Of a DNA stretch of 64,000 bases, positions 10,006 to 46,517 are shown in pieces. This DNA comes from Lewinellaceae bacterium. Its GTDB lineage: Bacteria; Bacteroidota; Bacteroidia; Chitinophagales; Saprospiraceae. Both the position numbers and the translations under genes were made by a program. The notes beneath the pieces are model-generated. The model saw only the letters and a program-made list of their open reading frames with translations. It searched no databases and was not told the DNA's origin. The DNA is taken from contig JAHELJ010000017.1 in NCBI GenBank assembly GCA_024644235.1, positions 1 to 64,000 on the forward strand, read 5' to 3'. Positions within the stretch are counted from its first letter, which is position 1, and every line of letters starts with the position of its first letter.

Positions 10006-13000
10006 CTAGCCTCTTAACTCTAGAATTCGGATCTCCACCCGCTGATTCCTTCTACGCCCGTCGGCAGTGTCATTGGTTGCTATCGGTTGTCTTTTCCCGT
10101 AGCCTTTATAATACACTCGACGTCCGGAAATCCCCTTCCTGGTAAGGAAAAGAGCAACATTTCGTGCTCTTTCAGTACTGAGGCTATCGCAGAATTCGTG
10201 TGGCGGTATCCCGTTGGTATGCCCCTCGACCTGAACAACAATTTCAGGATTGTCGGATAGAAAAGTATATAACTCCTCCAAAACGGGGACAGAGGATTCG
10301 GTGATTGTCGCACTGTCTGCATCAAACTGAAGCTGTTCCATTTTCACAACCTGCCCGTGCCTCAACCTTCCCGCTGTCAAAGCAGGTAAAATTTTCTTCT
10401 TTGTCTCAAACGTAGCAGTTGCCGTACATCCCGCCTCGTCTGTCACGGAAACTGAATGTAGCCCTACAGGGAGATCATCCACCTCCAATGTAGTTGCTCC
10501 ATGATCCCATAAGTAAGTGTACTGTCCAGTACCTCCACTAACATTTAACTTTGCTTTTCCATTGCTCGTACTTTCATCTGTAGCAGCTCGAAGATCTGTT
10601 ACTTCTAGACTTAAGCTTGGCGGCTGGGTGACACGAAATTCAGAGGTTGTAGCATTCCCGGCGGCATCCTTCACAGAAACCTGGTAAACTCCCGCCTTCA
10701 CATTTCTGATTTCCTGCCCTTCCAATCCACTCTCACCCCAGTCAAATTCGAATGGACCCTTACCCCCAATCACCTCCACTATACCGGCGCCAGTTGCGTC
10801 TCCATTACACTGGATCTGGGCCGTCTGCTTGACACTGGCTACCAGATCTAAAATATTCTCCTTAACCTCAACTGCAGCCTCAGCTCTACATCCCGCTTCA
10901 TCCGTGACAGTTACTCGATGAACACCAGGGGCCAATCCAGTAGCTCTCGAGCTCCTTTCTCCATTATCCCACTGAAATTGATATTCACCAGTTCCGCCCT
11001 GCACAAGAGCAAGAGCTTCCCCATCAGCACCATCGGTGCTGGCCGGAGCCTCCACCCGTGCATTCACCTCCAGTGATAAGGGTTGAGTGAGATTTACTGA
11101 AACTACTTGCTCGTTTCCAACGGCATCGGTCACGGTGACTTCATATTTTCCAGCGACAAGATCGCTGACTTGTTGGCCAGATATCTTATCATCGCTCCAC
11201 ACAAACTGGTAGGGTGCCTTGCCGCCATTTATTTGCAAGTTCAGTGCCCCATTGTTATCTCCATGACAAAGGAGTTCTTGGCTGACTTCCAACGAAGCCT
11301 CCAGGGCAATAATATCTTCTGTAATATCAAATTGAACTATTTGTTCACAACCTACGGCGTCACTTACAGTCACCTGGTGAATACCTGGAGCCAATGATAC
11401 TGCCTGGTCGGTTGTTTCGCCATTGTCCCAGCTATAGGTGTACGGACCTCTACCACCTCGCACCTGTACGGTGGCCTGTCCATCCTGATTGTTTGTAGTG
11501 GCCGCTGCATCAACCCGTACTTCTGCTACTAACTCCGACGGTTCCTCCAACTCGATCGAAGCCGAGCCAATGTTGCCAGCAGCATCCGTCACCGTCAGTG
11601 CGTAGGTTCCAGCCGCCAATCCAGATGCATGCCCGCCCCGAATGGAAGGATCACTCCAGGCAAATTCGAAAGGTTTTTTCCCTCCCTCAATAATAATTTC
11701 CAAGGTTGCCTTCTTATCTCCAAAGCACTGATTGGAAGTCTGCTCATTTATTCTAACAGCTAACGGAAGCACATTTTCTGGAATCTGAAATTCGGTACTA
11801 GCAGCACAGCCATTGACATCAGCTACTTTCAAAGAGTACTTACCAGCACCTAGATTCTGAACATTTGGACCGTTGGTACCGTCACTCCAGGTGAAGGTGT
11901 AGGGTTCCACCCCGCCTCTGGCAGTGGCAGTTGCAGCTCCATTTTCCTGTTCCGTTGTAGCCGGGATAATGTCAGTGACTGAGATCCTTAGTTCTTCAGG
12001 TTCCAAAAGTTCGATGTAAGATGTCGCTCTCATTCCCAGATCATCAGTGACTGTGACTCTATATTCTCCCGGTTTAAGTGCAGTAGCTATTGAGCCCGAG
12101 ATTTGCGTATTACTCCAGTCAAAGGTATATGGACCCTGGCCTCCCGTTACCTGCACTTCCAACTCTCCACTCGATGATGCGAAGCAATCCACTGGTTTGG
12201 TCACCTCCATCTTCACCACGAGGTCTGCAATTTCCCTGACGATATCTATTTCAGCCGTTGCTGAGCAACCATTTTCATCCGTGACAGTCACCCGATGTAT
12301 TCCCGCAGATAATCTCTCAGCATCTGCTCTGCGTTCACCATTATCCCATTGAAAAGAGTACTCTGGTACTCCGCCTTCCACCTGAACGGAAGCAGCAGCA
12401 TCAGAATTTCCTTCCGGGCTTTCCTGACGGGTTTGCTCCACTGTAAGAGTCAATCGTGGATTCGGGACGATCCCTCTGGCGATCTTCGATTTACCGCCGC
12501 TGTCAGTCACGGTCACCATGTATGTACCCGCAGATAATCCGGTCCTGGTAGCACCCTGTTGGCCATCATCCCAAGTATAGGTATAGGGGGCCTGGCCTCC
12601 ATTGATATGAACAGCGAGCGCAGCATCATTATCCAAGTTTCCCTCACAAGACAAGGGTTTCTCCAGAAGGCATGTCACTGTAAGCGCTGAGGCTTTCTCG
12701 ATTAGATATAATCCCTTGTCATCTGTGCCTACCCATACAGCTCCTTCATCATCCACCGCAATGCAATTCACGAATGAACTCGTAAAATAATCCGCTCCAT
12801 CAAAGGTTTTATAAGCTCCTGAAGCAACATCGTACATCGTTAACTGTTCTGAGGCTATCCAGAGCCTCCCATCCTTATCAAAAGCAATGTCTTCTATATT
12901 TCCCTCAGTCAATTCTGCCGGGAGATCCAGTCGGTTCCAATTGTCTTCTTCATCAACAACCCATATCAGGTCTTCAGACAGCAGCCAGACATCCTGACCA

Positions 13001-39090: not shown

Positions 39091-40074
39091 CTATCCCAGC
39101 ACACCCAAGTGCAATATCCTTCCACCTGTCTGACACATTGGATGTACATTCTTCCCGATCACCACGCCCTCTTCGGGAGCTTTGTACCGTTTGACAATGT
39201 CGCCAAAGGCATTATGTATGGTAGCGATCACATCACCTTCATGAACAAAATCGGTAAGTTCGGGATGTACCGATAATATGCCCCCGGTATCGGCGTAGAT
39301 CCAATAGGAATGACTGCATTCTACAGGAGGGATGTTTGGCTCGAGGATTTCTCCATCGATCATCCGCAGATGCACCATTGCGTTTTGAACCCCCTCATAA
39401 GCGGACTGAACCATGTCTTTCTGAAATCGGTTAGGATCTCCAATCTCAAGGGTAACTGCCGGAATACCCATCTCATCCGCAGCACCTCTCAGTGTTCCAT
39501 CTGAAGGTGGATTATGAACAATGATGTCAGGGTTCTGGAGATAAGCTAATGCCGCGGTCTGCTCATCTTCCATGTCTGCCCGGACATAGTAGGAATTAAT
39601 CCTGCCAAAACTGGCGGTGTGCAGATCGATCAGAAAGTCAATGTTCTTTACAACATTCTGAACAAACCGGTATGCATAAACCTCACTTACGTTTCCATTC
39701 TCCTTACCCGGCATAATGTGGTTCAAATCGGTGCCATCAGGAAATCGTCTTTGCTTTCTCAGGAATGAAGGCACATTGACCACCGGTATACCAATCACTA
39801 TGCCTGACAACTGCTCCACCTGCAGTTTTCTGAACATTCGCTGTATGACAAATAAGCCGTTGATCTCGTTGCCGTGAATTGCTGCCGTAATGCCCAGCAC
39901 CGGACCATCACTTTTTCCCCGTGCAATCAGTACGGGGATATGAATTGGCTGCCCTATACCATTGGTGACCAGGTGCAACCAGTATTTTTGAATCTCCCCT
40001 CTGGGCACTCCTGAGAGTTCGAGTTTTCGAACCACCCGAATATCCTTATCAAGATGAAAAAGATAAGTCTCCAT
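39091..40074 (-). CDS. Succinylglutamate desuccinylase/aspartoacylase (AstE/AspA) family deacylase
   Basis: This is an M14-like zinc amidohydrolase. GITAAIHGNEINGL carries the HGNE zinc ligands, IDLHTASFGR supplies the third His, and the LEIG stretch (VTLEIGDPNRF) contains the catalytic Glu. The C-terminal region from about 240 is a barrel-sandwich-like domain (GILSVHPELTDFVHEGDVIATI...GVVIGKN) common to the long form of the family. The start overlaps the upstream ATP-grasp gene by 26 bp, which implies translational coupling. It would hydrolyse an N-acyl or peptide-like bond, perhaps removing a protecting acyl group made or used by its partner ligases. Confidence 0.9.
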   Translation of the reverse strand: METYLFHLDKDIRVVRKLELSGVPRGEIQKYWLHLVTNGIGQPIHIPVLIARGKSDGPVLGITAAIHGNEINGLFVIQRMFRKLQVEQLSGIVIGIPVVNVPSFLRKQRRFPDGTDLNHIMPGKENGNVSEVYAYRFVQNVVKNIDFLIDLHTASFGRINSYYVRADMEDEQTAALAYLQNPDIIVHNPPSDGTLRGAADEMGIPAVTLEIGDPNRFQKDMVQSAYEGVQNAMVHLRMIDGEILEPNIPPVECSHSYWIYADTGGILSVHPELTDFVHEGDVIATIHNAFGDIVKRYKAPEEGVVIGKNVHPMCQTGGRILHLGVLG

Positions 40075-41077
40075 AGACCTTGCTATTTAGGTATTCCAAA
40101 ATTAGTTGTGCTGCTGTAGACACCACCGGCTTTCCCGTAAACAACTCCAACTGAGTGATTCCGCCGATGCTCATCGTATTCAGTTCAGAAAGCACCCTTT
40201 TGCCGTGGTCTCCCACCAAGGTATCGAAACCAAAAATGACAATTCCTTTCTCCCAAAGTTTAGGAATAAGTCGATTAGCAATCTCCACCTCTTGTTGATC
40301 AGGCTCTGACCGAATTGCCTGACCGCCTTGCGATACATTACATATCCAATCTCCTTCTGCAGGAAGACGCAAAGTGCCTCCCAATAATTGTCTATTTACC
40401 ACAATATTTCTTTTATCACCTTGATCTACATTTTCTAAGAATTTCATTGCCAGGTACTCAATGACCCTGAGTTTGCTGAGTTTCCTTTCGAATTGAGCGA
40501 AACTCAAAACCTGCCCTTGATCCCAAACTTTGTTTGCCTGAACATCCAATCTGATAACTCCGTCTCCACCGTAAGTGTTTAATGGTTTTAGGACGATCGG
40601 AAATTCACTAGCAAAGTCCCGGATTTCTTTAAAGCTATTACAAAGTGCCATAGGTGGACATAGCTCTGGAAACTGGAGTAAATACTTTTTTGAGCTGGTT
40701 TCAATAATCCCGCTTGGCCGATTAACTATTGCATCTGTTTTAAAGTGTTTGTTGAGCAGGGTAAAGAATACCGCATCCGGCGGTGGAGGCATTCGAATCA
40801 AAATCGCATTGTAGTTTGAAAGATCAGCCAGCTGCATTTGTCGATTCAGGATATGGCTCTCAATCGAATAAATAAACCCTTCATCGACTGGAGTCACAAA
40901 GAACTTCCTTGCAGATTTCCCGGAAAAAAAATCCAGATTCACAGATAGTGCACGGCTGGCTACATCTACCCTTTTGGTGTATTTACTCTGAGCCATTGCT
41001 CTGGCCAGAGCATACAGAGAGTTTTCAACGGTATGCCGGCTATGATCAGTAAGAATGAGAAGATTGAGTCCAGCCAT
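40049..41077 (-). CDS. Glutathione-synthetase-like ATP-grasp ligase
   Basis: The order of motifs matches the ATP-binding domain of prokaryotic glutathione synthetase: IVNRPSGIIETSSKKYLLQFPELCP, IVLKPLNTYGGDGVIRL, LENVDQGDKRNIVVN, GGTLRLPAEGDWICNVSQGGQ and FGFDTLVGDHGKRVLSELN. The family couples ATP hydrolysis to amide-bond formation via an acyl phosphate. A GshA-like partner is not encoded nearby, so classical glutathione synthesis is doubtful. It lies between another ATP-grasp-like protein (1-bp junction upstream) and an AstE/AspA deacylase. This is therefore probably a dedicated ligase for a small peptide-like product. Confidence 0.85.
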   Translation of the reverse strand: MAGLNLLILTDHSRHTVENSLYALARAMAQSKYTKRVDVASRALSVNLDFFSGKSARKFFVTPVDEGFIYSIESHILNRQMQLADLSNYNAILIRMPPPPDAVFFTLLNKHFKTDAIVNRPSGIIETSSKKYLLQFPELCPPMALCNSFKEIRDFASEFPIVLKPLNTYGGDGVIRLDVQANKVWDQGQVLSFAQFERKLSKLRVIEYLAMKFLENVDQGDKRNIVVNRQLLGGTLRLPAEGDWICNVSQGGQAIRSEPDQQEVEIANRLIPKLWEKGIVIFGFDTLVGDHGKRVLSELNTMSIGGITQLELFTGKPVVSTAAQLILEYLNSKVYGDLSFSS

Positions 41078-42535
41078 TTACTGACCTTCGAGGATCTCTT
41101 TGATGAGAACTGGATCGTTGTTGAGGGATTCAAACAGCTTCATCCGAAACCTGCCTTTTGAGTTATGCATTTTTTCAGCCATTCTGTCAATTGCAATTGT
41201 TGATAGAATCGTCTGGATATAAGCTTCAATCAGATCGTCAAGTCCCAATCCCAGTTTGTGAAAGTCACGACGATCCATCATCAGCAGGCGAGAAGTATCA
41301 GTTGTCCAGGTTCCATCCTGTTGGCGGCTGCTGAGATTTGTCCCAAGCATGTCCCAGGACCTCACTCCTGTCTCAAGTGTCTCCACGAGTGGATTGGGAG
41401 CCCGGCGCGAGTAAACGCAGATTGGTCGCATTCCATCATCAGTAGATTGAATCATCATACGCAGATCAAACACATAGGTCCTGCCTTTGAGATTGGGGAT
41501 CGTTCCCACATGATAAAACTTGCCTTTGCTGGTTTTGGAACTCCAGTGATAGTTACCGATCAGACTTTGAACGATGAATTTGTCATACTCAAAATCTAGC
41601 TGCATAAAGGCATTCAGTTCACTGCGGTTTACGATTGTATACACTCCCTGGCCGGCGTTGCTATATGGTACTTTGACCACCGCTTGACCGCCCATCTTAT
41701 TGATCCACAACGGGACTTCGTTTTTCGAAACATCCCAAATCGTAGCTGGAATATTTAGCTCAAGGCCAAAACTCTGTATTTCTGCATTATACAGGTCATA
41801 AGCTTTGGCAGCCACCATCTTATTTCGCCCCCCGGCAAGGCAGGATGCGATGGGGTTTAGAATACGAGTTTTTGTATGGAGTGGTATCCGTGTCCAGGGC
41901 TTCTGGGTTACATAGCGAAATGCCGCCCGCACTGGCGTCCAACCCCCCCGATCATCTCTTACTTCTAATATTCCATCTGTGAAGCGAGCCGGTGGATCAG
42001 GATCATCTTTAAAGAAGGGCATGAAATAAACTGGTTCTTGAAAAACATCAGCTATCACCTTGGCGTATCCGCTGGTCTCCATGGGGTTTTTGTCGTACAG
42101 TACCGCAAGTACACCATCGACCAGGCCTCTTTTATTGTCCAGCATTGATTTGAAAGTGCCCTCAATCAATCTGCGGTATCCTCCTTGCTCTTTATGTTCT
42201 ACCGCCAATGGCATTGATTTCTGACCCGAGGGACAGGAATTGTTCTCGATGATTATCATCTGCTTGTTTCCTCCTGCCGTGGTCACATTGATCAGATCTG
42301 CACCCGCCCACCGAAAGAATTTGGTGTTGGTTTCGAGAATAGATTGGAGAAACTCCCGATCAACTCTGGGATGTAGATGGCAGTATCTATCCACTATCCT
42401 TTGACTATCAAGAGTGAGGAAGAACTGGATCATGGGATGGATCGTGGCATTCAATGCTTTTTCATACCAATGATCTTCAGCTTCGAAACTTCCGGGTTGA
42501 AATACCCTGACCTTATGTGTTGTGACAACTTTCAA
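41078..42535 (-). CDS. Uncharacterised ATP-grasp-like protein
   Basis: I do not recognise a named family. The 485-residue protein has no signal peptide. Features that recall ATP-grasp enzymes are a glycine-rich nucleotide loop (GGQAVVKVPYSNAGQGVYTI), a short RGW-like substrate region and a YVFDLRMMIQSTDDG block with the acidic/basic residues used for Mg-ATP. A conserved-looking IIIENNSCPSGQKSMP segment lies near residue 100. It is the first gene of a three-gene operon, whose next start is immediately adjacent. Presumably it makes or activates the substrate that the second ligase extends. Confidence 0.7.
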   Translation of the reverse strand: MKVVTTHKVRVFQPGSFEAEDHWYEKALNATIHPMIQFFLTLDSQRIVDRYCHLHPRVDREFLQSILETNTKFFRWAGADLINVTTAGGNKQMIIIENNSCPSGQKSMPLAVEHKEQGGYRRLIEGTFKSMLDNKRGLVDGVLAVLYDKNPMETSGYAKVIADVFQEPVYFMPFFKDDPDPPARFTDGILEVRDDRGGWTPVRAAFRYVTQKPWTRIPLHTKTRILNPIASCLAGGRNKMVAAKAYDLYNAEIQSFGLELNIPATIWDVSKNEVPLWINKMGGQAVVKVPYSNAGQGVYTIVNRSELNAFMQLDFEYDKFIVQSLIGNYHWSSKTSKGKFYHVGTIPNLKGRTYVFDLRMMIQSTDDGMRPICVYSRRAPNPLVETLETGVRSWDMLGTNLSSRQQDGTWTTDTSRLLMMDRRDFHKLGLGLDDLIEAYIQTILSTIAIDRMAEKMHNSKGRFRMKLFESLNNDPVLIKEILEGQ

Positions 42536-44035: not shown

Positions 44036-44920
44036 ATGACAGATTGGATTAATTACAAGATTCTTGAATTTGGTTCAGTGACAATTACAGTTGAGAACAT
44101 CCTGATAGTTGTTGCTATTTTACTCATCACCAAATTGGCTTTGATATTGGTGCACTATGGCCTTGCCAAAAAGCTTGGCAAACAATCTCCGGGAGCGGTG
44201 GATGAGGGTAAGAAGTATGCCTACCAAAAAGTTCTCACTTACCTATTCTACTTCGTTGCTACCATTTTGATCTTTCAATCATTCGGCCTCAAACTCACCG
44301 TGCTACTCACCGGCTCAGCAGCGTTGTTGGTTGGAGTAGGTATTGGGCTACAGCAGACATTCAACGACCTAATTTCGGGATTTATCTTACTAACAGAGGG
44401 ATCAGTGAAAAAAGGCGACATCGTTAATATTGCTAGTATTATCGGCACAGTAAAGGAGATTGGAATCAGAACCTCCAAGATCGAAACCCGAGATGATATT
44501 GTCATGATTATCCCGAATTCTAAATTGGTAGTCGAAAACGTAATCAACTGGAGTCACAATGCCTTACCGACCCGATTTCAAGTATTGGTTGGTGTTGCTT
44601 ATTCTTCAAATCCAGAAGAGGTTACTACCCTCCTCCTGAAGGCAGCTAATCAACATCCGTCGGTATTGAAAAATCCAGGACCAAGTGTTCAGTTCAAGGA
44701 TTTTGGCAATTCATCGATCGATTTCATCCTGCATTTTTATACATTGGATTTTCTGGGAGTGGACCAAATCAAAAGTCAACTACGCTACATTATCTTTGAC
44801 CTATTCGGAAAAAATGAAGTACAAATACCGTTTCCCCAAACTGATCTGTGGATAAAAGAAATGCCTCTAAATAGTAAGCTAATCGCACAGTTGGAGCCGA
44901 AAACCAGCAAAAAACATTGA
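44036..44920 (+). CDS. MscS family mechanosensitive channel
   Basis: Three hydrophobic segments (ILIVVAILLITKLALILVHY, VLTYLFYFVATILIFQSF, LTVLLTGSAALLVGVGIGL) are followed by the pore-lining TM3b region GSAALLVGVGIGLQQTFNDLISGFILL and the beta domain (VKKGDIVNIASIIGTVKEIGI, IIPNSKLVVENVINWS) and the C-terminal alpha/beta region ending PFPQTDLWI. MscS channels open under membrane tension and release solutes on hypo-osmotic shock. It follows a membrane-anchored protein gene without a gap, and its TGA stop overlaps the TTG start of an ECF sigma factor. Confidence 0.92.
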   Translation: MTDWINYKILEFGSVTITVENILIVVAILLITKLALILVHYGLAKKLGKQSPGAVDEGKKYAYQKVLTYLFYFVATILIFQSFGLKLTVLLTGSAALLVGVGIGLQQTFNDLISGFILLTEGSVKKGDIVNIASIIGTVKEIGIRTSKIETRDDIVMIIPNSKLVVENVINWSHNALPTRFQVLVGVAYSSNPEEVTTLLLKAANQHPSVLKNPGPSVQFKDFGNSSIDFILHFYTLDFLGVDQIKSQLRYIIFDLFGKNEVQIPFPQTDLWIKEMPLNSKLIAQLEPKTSKKH

Positions 44921-45495: not shown

Positions 45496-45756
45496 ATGAG
45501 TCATCAACCTGAAAAGGCCGATATCAGAAAACACCTCGAAAAGCAGTTTCGAGAATATCTGCCTAAAGAAGATGTTCCGGAAAGCCTTAAGGACGAGGTT
45601 TTTCAATCGCTGGATAGAATTCGGTTTGCTGCCGAATTGATGGATCTATTCACAGGAAAATTTACAGCATCGGAGCTGGAGTTTCTTAATTTAATTTCTG
45701 AACAGAGAGAGTCTCCCGCTGCATCTGAAACAGAACCCGGAACAGACCCCCATTAG
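45496..45756 (+). CDS. Small acidic protein downstream of the ECF sigma factor
   Basis: The 86-residue protein is rich in Glu and Asp, has no membrane helix and is mostly helical (ADIRKHLEKQFREYLPKED, KDEVFQSLDRIRFAAELMDLF). It begins 3 bp after the sigma factor stop, so it is co-translated. The position is that of an anti-sigma or regulator, but the sequence has no classical zinc or TM anti-sigma pattern. Its end overlaps the convergent PPK2 gene by 4 bp. Confidence 0.6.
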   Translation: MSHQPEKADIRKHLEKQFREYLPKEDVPESLKDEVFQSLDRIRFAAELMDLFTGKFTASELEFLNLISEQRESPAASETEPGTDPH

Positions 45757-46517
45757 ATACTGTATGGAACGACAATCTCAGGGTCAGGGAGTTCTATTTT
45801 CGGATCCCTACCGTCATAGTCAAATTTCGAAAGCACATAGTTAATCGCTCCAATTCTTCCCTTTTCCCTTTCATTTCCTTTTACAATAACCCAAGGATTC
45901 TTCAACGTGCTTGTACCATTAAACATTTGGTTCTTATACCGTGTAAAATCATCCCATTTTTCGGTAGCCAACAAGTCCACCGGACTAACCTTCCAGTGCT
46001 TGAGTGGACTCGACATTCGGCTTTGGATCCTTTCCTTTTGCACACCTAGATTAATGGAAAACCATAACTTAACGAGGATAATACCGTCATCTACCAGCAT
46101 GTCCTCCACCTGTACAACCTGTTTCATGAATCGATCATATTCTTCAGCTGTACAGAATCCCATCACCGGCTCCACGACGGCACGATTGTACCAGCTGCGA
46201 TCGAAGAAGACGATTTCTCCGGCATTCGGCAGTTCTTTGAGGTATCTTTGAAAATACCATTGGCCCATCTGGACTTCAGACGGTTTTCCTAAAGCAACTA
46301 CCCTGTAATGCCGTGGATTGAGAAACTGGGAAAACCTGAAGATAGCACTACCTTTTCCAGCAGTGTCTCTTCCTTCAAAAATGATCACCAATCTCTTTTT
46401 GCTTTCAAATATGTATTTCTGCAATTTGAGTAACTCCACCTGCAGGAAATACAATTCCTCGATGTACATCGGATTTACCTGGTAGTAATCCTCTAGAGTG
46501 CGTTGTTTAATACTCAT
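45753..46517 (-). CDS. ppk2: Polyphosphate kinase 2
   Basis: PPK2 uses polyphosphate to phosphorylate nucleoside mono- or diphosphates. Walker A is GRDTAGKGS (residues 49-57) and the DRSWYNR lid/Walker B-type motif is at 106-112 in FFDRSWYNRAVVEPVMGFC. The KLWFSI block and C-terminal NPWVIVKGNEREKGRI complete the fold. The 254-residue length suggests a single-domain enzyme. It follows a small sensor-like membrane protein gene on the same strand by 3 bp. PPK2 in an osmotic-stress neighbourhood fits stress-linked energy use. Confidence 0.93.
   Translation of the reverse strand: MSIKQRTLEDYYQVNPMYIEELYFLQVELLKLQKYIFESKKRLVIIFEGRDTAGKGSAIFRFSQFLNPRHYRVVALGKPSEVQMGQWYFQRYLKELPNAGEIVFFDRSWYNRAVVEPVMGFCTAEEYDRFMKQVVQVEDMLVDDGIILVKLWFSINLGVQKERIQSRMSSPLKHWKVSPVDLLATEKWDDFTRYKNQMFNGTSTLKNPWVIVKGNEREKGRIGAINYVLSKFDYDGRDPKIELPDPEIVVPYSI

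Follow-up and report, generated by a model that had tools for sequence, protein, structure and literature searches.

An operon of Lewinellaceae pairing an uncatalogued ATP-grasp-type ligase with a zinc deacylase, and its possible role in polyamine conjugation

We analysed a stretch of 64,000 nucleotides from a Lewinellaceae bacterium (GenBank assembly GCA_024644235.1, contig JAHELJ010000017.1, positions 1 to 64,000; hereafter the window), in which three genes, A (42535..41078), B (41077..40049) and C (40074..39091), follow one another on the minus strand. A encodes a predicted ligase of the permuted ATP-grasp type from an uncatalogued family, B a glutathione-synthetase-like ATP-grasp ligase and C a zinc deacylase of the AstE/AspA type. 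The reading that we favour, while holding it tentatively, is that this operon is a small amide-metabolism module that makes and unmakes a polyamine conjugate. A would activate a carboxylate as an acyl phosphate and join it to an amine of a polyamine such as putrescine, homospermidine, agmatine or a similar compound; B, where present, would be another ATP-grasp ligase, building or lengthening the acyl part, which might be peptide-like; and C would hydrolyse the amide, releasing the free polyamine. The product would probably be a counterpart of glutathionylspermidine made without glutathione. We propose a role in polyamine conjugation because relatives of A repeatedly adjoin genes of polyamine synthesis. 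This neighbourhood is our main clue and was not part of the original prediction, a model's note on the window that described the trio from its sequence.

Relatives of A were sought in three samples, each counting the window genome, and were found in 23 of 60 close relatives, 9 of 395 genomes sampled evenly across the phylum and 16 of 395 sampled from the class. These amount to 39 distinct genomes under nine family labels, joined by two contigs from metagenome-assembled genomes (labelled Bacteroidia and Bacteroidetes, the labels from which the name of the phylum is taken); the A-family operon is scattered across the phylum. No relative was present in the viral contigs or in the plasmids that were scanned, and A, B and C matched none of the PADLOC defence models at E<=0.01. 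For the neighbourhood table, all open reading frames (ORFs) of at least 75 aa around A were clustered; 41 sources entered, of which 40 have a complete A frame, the remaining one (L043) being left out as its A is cut by the contig end. Since loci at contig ends may conceal neighbours, the adjacency counts given below are lower bounds.

In 11 of the 40 loci, an arginine-decarboxylase-like gene (ADC) is found no more than 7.5 kb from A, mostly together with an agmatinase gene, a SpeY-like gene or both. Agmatinase is found within this distance in 7 loci (8 across the fetched stretches) and a gene resembling deoxyhypusine synthase (DHS) and SpeY in 8. The 11 ADC loci span seven family labels (f1, f2, f24, f26, f52, f75 and f78) and at least four gene orders. 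The polyamine genes stand between A and B in the order A-ADC-agmatinase-SpeY-S-B-C (L030, L032), S being a small protein described below, and elsewhere the orders are ADC-SpeY-S-A-B-C (L033), ADC-A-B-C (L036), ADC-agmatinase-SpeY-A-B-C (L042), ADC-agmatinase-SpeY-S and then A-C (L059, L061, L078), S-A-C and then ADC-agmatinase (L060), ADC-SpeY-GNAT/nitrilase-A-B-C (L074) and, in L072, A-C, MscS, RimB-RimK-AstE and ADC-agmatinase-SpeY. Among the 29 genomes in which both genes were located, 8 have ADC no further than 5 kb from A, where random placement expects 0.074 (P about 7e-15), and with one genome per genus 7 of 27 do (P 6e-13); both P values are post hoc, the polyamine genes having been picked after the neighbourhood was viewed, and they ignore shared ancestry beyond the genus. 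The count of 11 in 40 adds nine genomes that were read only around A. Models were run on the polyamine genes of L032, and other copies were assigned by clustering with these. The L032 agmatinase is above its cut-off at 220 bits, and the DHS/SpeY-like protein carries the deoxyhypusine-synthase domain PF01916 (143.6 bits, cut-off 27); its best named match, the homospermidine-biosynthesis model NF001980, stays below cut-off (111.8 against 450 bits).

The three genes themselves form a set that is not a chance grouping. Tight packing, as originally predicted, is confirmed by the frames; of the junctions announced as 1-bp and overlapping, the overlap stands, at 26 bases between B and C (40049-40074), and the 1-bp junction does not, A and B abutting with zero bases between 41078 and 41077. 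By ORF clustering, C is present in 34 of the 40 loci, or 35 with L006, whose contig stops inside C, and B in 25, being absent from 15; from these counts we take A-C as the core and B as an optional addition. The conservation of gene order on which the original prediction depended is found in relatives, A-B-C being contiguous in this order in 19 of 40 loci. B lies elsewhere nearby in six more (L030, L032, L073, L076, L079, L080), A adjoins C without B in nine (L006 included), C stands upstream of A with intervening genes in L029, and A occurs without C in five (L037, L039, L041, L046, L062). In L072, a RimK gene that clustered with B was removed from the B count, and a second AstE gene belongs to a locus already counted for C. 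The idea that an acyl-protected intermediate is made and later deprotected found no evidence of its own, and the absence of B from 15 loci favours instead a ligase/hydrolase pair formed by A and C. In one genome (G728), A is flanked by two copies of B (L075:7859-8893 and 10540-11553).

The product of A (41078..42535, minus strand; 485 aa, TTG start) belongs most likely to the permuted ATP-grasp ligases, outside the current Pfam families, an assignment drawn from its frame, a pooled-profile match and an alignment of motifs. Residues 80-104 (42224..42298, minus) hold D80, E97-x-N99, which are putative Mg/ATP ligands, and P-S-G, all invariant in 24 relatives. The P-S-G and E-x-N elements, usually a C-terminal ATP-grasp motif, are here placed near the N terminus, where they align with the families GSP_synth and CP_ATPgrasp_2. 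Further on, residues 226-239 (41819..41860, minus) contain N-P and N238-K239, the latter being by alignment the putative first ATP-binding lysine; N227, P228, N238 and K239 are invariant in the relatives and aligned with the NP/NK of GSP_synth. By an hhalign match, residues 285-298, AVVKVPYSNAGQGV (41642..41683, minus), would form the strand of K288 and the glycine-rich ATP-grasp loop, with K288, S292, N293, G295, Q296 and G297 invariant. A joint alignment of A, GSP_synth and CP_ATPgrasp_2 shares D80, E97-x-N99, P-S-G, N-P/N-K239, K288 with S-N-x-G, Q323 and R377, and all of these residues of A, from D80 through R377, are invariant in the 24 relatives. The D-L-R at 357-359 resembles that of CP_ATPgrasp_2, and the aligner put the two in different columns. 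Identity to the window A ranges from 47 to 66% among these first 24 relatives.

Family models find little in A. A Pfam search with the window protein gave zero matches at E<=1, and scanning the 24 A proteins singly gave none that was significant, the best being an unrelated family at E 0.013, with one match to GSH-S_ATP (0.035) and two to ATP-grasp (0.17 or worse). Neither PF03738 (GSP_synth) nor PF14403 (CP_ATPgrasp_2) is among the eight families that hmmscan matched to these proteins at E<=1; A is below the gathering cut-offs of both and so a member of neither, and the window genome has no PF03738 match. Against the Protein Data Bank nothing was significant, a profile search giving one chance match (E 0.14). 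The NCBIfam matches of A are weak and in permuted order, with the C-terminal part of an ATP-grasp model at residues 75-105 and the N-terminal part of a RimK model at 260-327. We used profiles of 40 A sequences, 24 of GSP_synth, from which the weak fragment L141 was left out, and 25 of CP_ATPgrasp_2. Against the pooled GSP_synth and CP_ATPgrasp_2 profile, A scored 42.7 over 209 columns, or 43.3 when query and target changed places, and none of 150 column-shuffled controls came as high (mean 17.5, maximum 27.4); seven unrelated profiles scored 10-22 against A and the B profile 18, and aligning the A and B profiles directly yielded no significant match. The aligned stretch, unbroken, begins with E-x-N (residue 93 on), takes in the K288 loop and reaches residue 330, an order which, at the level of sequence, speaks for the permuted ATP-grasp arrangement and differs from that of the canonical ligase B. 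For the earlier description of A as ATP-grasp-like, profile evidence favours a predicted ATP-grasp fold and refines the motif order to a circularly permuted one. A is probably a distant relative of glutathionylspermidine synthetase, with a similar predicted mode of action.

B (40049..41077, minus strand; 342 aa) keeps the canonical motif order and proved, as predicted, to be a glutathione-synthetase-like ligase, its GSH-S_ATP domain scoring 89.6 bits against a cut-off of 23 (E 2.1e-25). Residues 285-300 (40178..40225, minus) carry D285 and E298-x-N300, the C-terminal ATP-grasp metal motif; D221-K222-R223, D285, E298 and N300 are invariant in 17 aligned members. The best structure match is E. 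coli GshB (1gsa, 1.9e-13, residues 81-311). B falls short of the GshB equivalog cut-offs by more than half (125.2 against 272 bits and 110 against 299.05), in keeping with the earlier supposition that the middle gene is no ordinary glutathione synthetase. It had also been noted that no gshA-like gene is near, and indeed neither PF04107 nor PF04262 is matched on the window contig. Among the 39 A-bearing genomes, the glutamate-cysteine ligase family PF04262 occurs in none, and PF04107 is over its cut-off in 19, being strong and full-length in three (G018, G166, G761). Because of this absence of PF04262 and this scarcity of strong full-length PF04107, glutathione is improbable as the acyl part. 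The window genome does hold a 646-aa frame (L142:362-2302, on its contig C232) with a partial, weak GCS2/PF04107 match of 20.8 bits, or 41.7 with its frame neighbours; this is a candidate gamma-glutamyl-type ligase, and a gamma-glutamyl ligase of another kind is possible. Other A-bearing genomes, too, have long frames with comparably weak PF04107 matches.

C (39091..40074, minus strand; 327 aa) is the zinc deacylase that had been announced with HGNE and DLHTA motifs, and both were recovered within an AstE_AspA_cat domain of 125.1 bits (cut-off 25; E 3.3e-36). HGNE occupies residues 67-70 (39865..39876, minus), where H67 and E70 are putative zinc ligands, conserved in 18 and 19 of 19 proteins, and DLHTA occupies residues 150-154 (39613..39627, minus), where D150 and the putative zinc ligand H152 are invariant in the 19, as is the putative catalytic glutamate E210 (39445..39447, minus). 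Among named relatives, DoeB and uncharacterised AstE-like structures come closest, with structure matches to 3na6, 3cdx and 6twm, and C stays under the DoeB cut-off (TIGR02994; 84.9 against 402.7 bits, E 4.8e-24). The N-R of 3na6 and 3cdx becomes N-H in 16 of the 19 C proteins, N-R being kept in two and N-A found in one, a change that hints at another substrate. In the C homologue of L028 (L028:7412-8392), a locus without B, the HGNE histidine is replaced by arginine and the protein is possibly inactive.

The small protein S, linked both to A and to the polyamine genes, provides further evidence, of a second kind, that these form a single system. In alignment, S has a conserved core of about 65-75 residues and a variable tail rich in Asp and Glu, with a C-terminal end that is not conserved; the four copies scanned had no significant Pfam match. 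Clustering places it near A in 10 of 40 loci, and tblastn adds L033. Its stop overlaps the start of A in L056 and L060, and in L057 and L079 its stop precedes A by 3 and 43 bases; in other loci it adjoins SpeY or ADC, and in the window genome it stands next to the decarboxylase. Examples are L030:11982-12287, L056:8685-9071, L057:8539-8952, L059:10955-11227 and L081:9730-10074, the last being the copy on contig C15 of the window genome. A single-sequence search matched S in 12 of 30 A-bearing genomes, and in four draft assemblies (G034, G015, G035, G006) it is close neither to A nor to any decarboxylase match.

Several results weigh against a polyamine-conjugating role or against the kinship of A on which it leans. 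In the window genome itself, S, ADC, agmatinase and SpeY are grouped on contig C15, a different contig from that of A-B-C, and in 21 of the 29 genomes ADC falls outside the 5 kb around A, all mapping of ADC having been made in A-bearing genomes. One genome (G034) carries A, B and C with no decarboxylase match. The best named match of the L032 ADC is a speA-type arginine decarboxylase (2.5e-49), below its cut-offs (176.7 against 369 and 168.3 against 624.1 bits), and its substrate is therefore itself only presumed. A SpeY-like match is found in 13 of 30 A-bearing genomes and in 17 there is none, so that homospermidine cannot be the sole acceptor. Genes for MscS-type channels are near A in 6 of 40 loci, the window included. 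As for A, comparison with GSP_synth alone is marginal, at 30.6 (none of 150 shuffles reaching it, one at 29.9) and 24.3 when exchanged, and an earlier profile of seven members gave 28.0 against a maximum of 26.6 over 200 shuffles; CP_ATPgrasp_2 alone gives 23.1, inside its 200 shuffles (maximum 30.4). The pooled score drops to 33.9 once one bridging sequence is removed. Moreover, the pooled profile scores 47.1 with the canonical ligase B, and therefore supports ATP-grasp generally more than closeness to GSP_synth; on B its halves are swapped, columns 228-442 falling on B columns 47-262 (residues 34-251) and columns 154-187, with E-x-N, on B columns 289-321 (residues 278-310), the latter weakly (E 0.24). 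Finally, an AlphaFold model of A built from three input sequences reached a pLDDT of 38, too low for a usable fold.

The acidic tail of S lends itself to another explanation, in which A and C would be writer and eraser on a protein, A putting a polyamine or an amino acid on carboxylates of S and C removing it. We judge this unlikely, while giving it more weight than any other competitor. The proximity of S to A, the overlap of their frames in two loci, the conserved core with its variable Asp/Glu-rich tail and the place of S beside the decarboxylase of the window genome are all in line with it; the occurrence of S in under half of the A-bearing genomes, which are the only ones in which it was sought, its separation from both A and decarboxylase in four drafts, and its unconserved C-terminal end are not. 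A precedent for such logic is the pair in which RimK adds and RimB removes glutamates on the ribosomal protein RpsF (PMC12239564). By analogy with RimK/RimB or hypusination, A might amidate carboxylates of S with the polyamine from ADC, agmatinase and SpeY, and C might reverse this, giving a charge-switch; this more specific version we consider doubtful. We know of no nameable precedent for a reversible polyamine charge-switch on a bacterial protein.

The channel genes invite a further alternative, according to which the module makes a peptide-like osmolyte that C degrades on down-shift, with the polyamine neighbours belonging to a shared stress regulon. N-acetylglutaminylglutamine amide offers a comparison. 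The MscS-type genes near A and the relation of C to DoeB of ectoine breakdown would fit, but the polyamine neighbourhood is commoner (11 of 40 loci), MscS genes are usually multi-copy, so that their proximity weighs less, and no amidotransferase or transporter recurs among the listed clusters of at least three loci; we consider this doubtful too. Two other explanations are rejected as very improbable. In one, the operon would serve ordinary glutathione-type synthesis with B as a divergent GshB and A as an accessory ligase, as the best named match of B (glutathione synthase), its resemblance to E. coli GshB structures and the 646-aa frame of the window genome might suggest; the shortfall of B from both GshB cut-offs, the rarity of glutamate-cysteine ligase families in the A-bearing genomes and the loss of B from 15 A loci stand against it. 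The other is a pathway for ribosomally synthesised and post-translationally modified peptides, of graspetide type, in which A or B would modify a precursor peptide. ATP-grasp ligases do lie near a small acidic-tailed protein here, but the core of S is a conserved domain of roughly 65-75 residues, and no transporter or leader peptidase recurs among the listed clusters, which cover frames of at least 75 aa.

Compared with known systems, A resembles GSP_synth in its permuted order, from E-x-N through NP/NK to the K...G loop, and differs in having about 80 C-terminal residues beyond the aligned part and no PF03738 match. Bifunctional glutathionylspermidine enzymes carry an amidase domain; A has no amidase-domain match, having no Pfam match whatever, and a zinc deacylase gene adjoins it instead. 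With CP_ATPgrasp_2, A shares G-x-D-[LI], E-x-N and P-S-G as well as a D-L-R, but there is no hmmscan match, the profile score alone is within shuffles and the D-L-R columns differ. A separate, true CP_ATPgrasp_2 gene, distinct from A, is present in the window genome (contig C215:11473-12594), and of 118 genomes sampled from the phylum, 42 gave a PF14403 match. B is like GshB in its GSH-S_ATP domain, its GDKR and E-x-N motifs and the 1gsa match, and unlike it in its scores far under the equivalog cut-offs and in hosts that lack PF04262. C shares the catalytic domain, HGNE, DLHTA and the conserved glutamate with DoeB, AstE and AspA, but is under the DoeB cut-off and mostly has N-H for the N-R of 3na6/3cdx. 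RimK-RimB-AstE clusters likewise set an ATP-grasp ligase beside hydrolases, but by their model scores neither A nor B is a RimK, and no RimB-type (PF05618) cluster recurs among the neighbours. One such cluster occurs at L072:3328-5677, between the C-A genes and ADC-agmatinase-SpeY, three modules thus sharing one locus.

According to PMC9992855, SpeY is a DHS homologue that produces homospermidine, and in beta-Proteobacteria and a phage the genes for homospermidine synthase are found clustered with those for glutathionylspermidine synthetase, which was read as a potential for glutathionylhomospermidine. By analogy, the arrangement of an A ligase with polyamine genes may express the same idea in different gene families. 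The matches listed in our literature search, as far as their text was accessible, hold no description of the trio; the amidoligase-cluster survey of Iyer et al. (2009), which lay outside that coverage, may hold related operons.

Other genes recur around the operon. The MscS-type channel gene of the window (44036-44920, plus strand) lies 1.5 kb from A; models were checked for this copy and that of L041. A fused GNAT and carbon-nitrogen hydrolase (L074:7231-8754; L078:10500-12128; L087:8441-9958) stands beside A, within the polyamine operon or both, the L074 copy having been checked with models and the other two assigned by clustering. Six of the 40 loci (L059, L060, L061, L078, L079, L080) have a glyoxalase-fold (VOC) protein of about 140 aa next to A, C or ADC. 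Three loci have near A a protein of 190-210 aa (L080:10456-11019; L026; L073) that we take, by eye, to be SET-domain-methyltransferase-like; the L080 copy has no Pfam match. A kinase gene, presumably of polyphosphate kinase 2 type, lies near the operon in the window (45753-46517, minus strand) and near the polyamine operon of G121 (L087:14850-15602).

To conclude, among the polyamine conjugates that such ligases make, glutathionylspermidine and trypanothione are the best known, and both depend on glutathione. Here an uncatalogued A ligase, outside the PF03738 and PF14403 cut-offs, is paired with a seemingly dedicated deacylase in an operon scattered over nine family labels. Such an operon, in genomes without PF04262, would point to polyamine conjugates, or proteins modified with polyamines, of a class not yet recognised.

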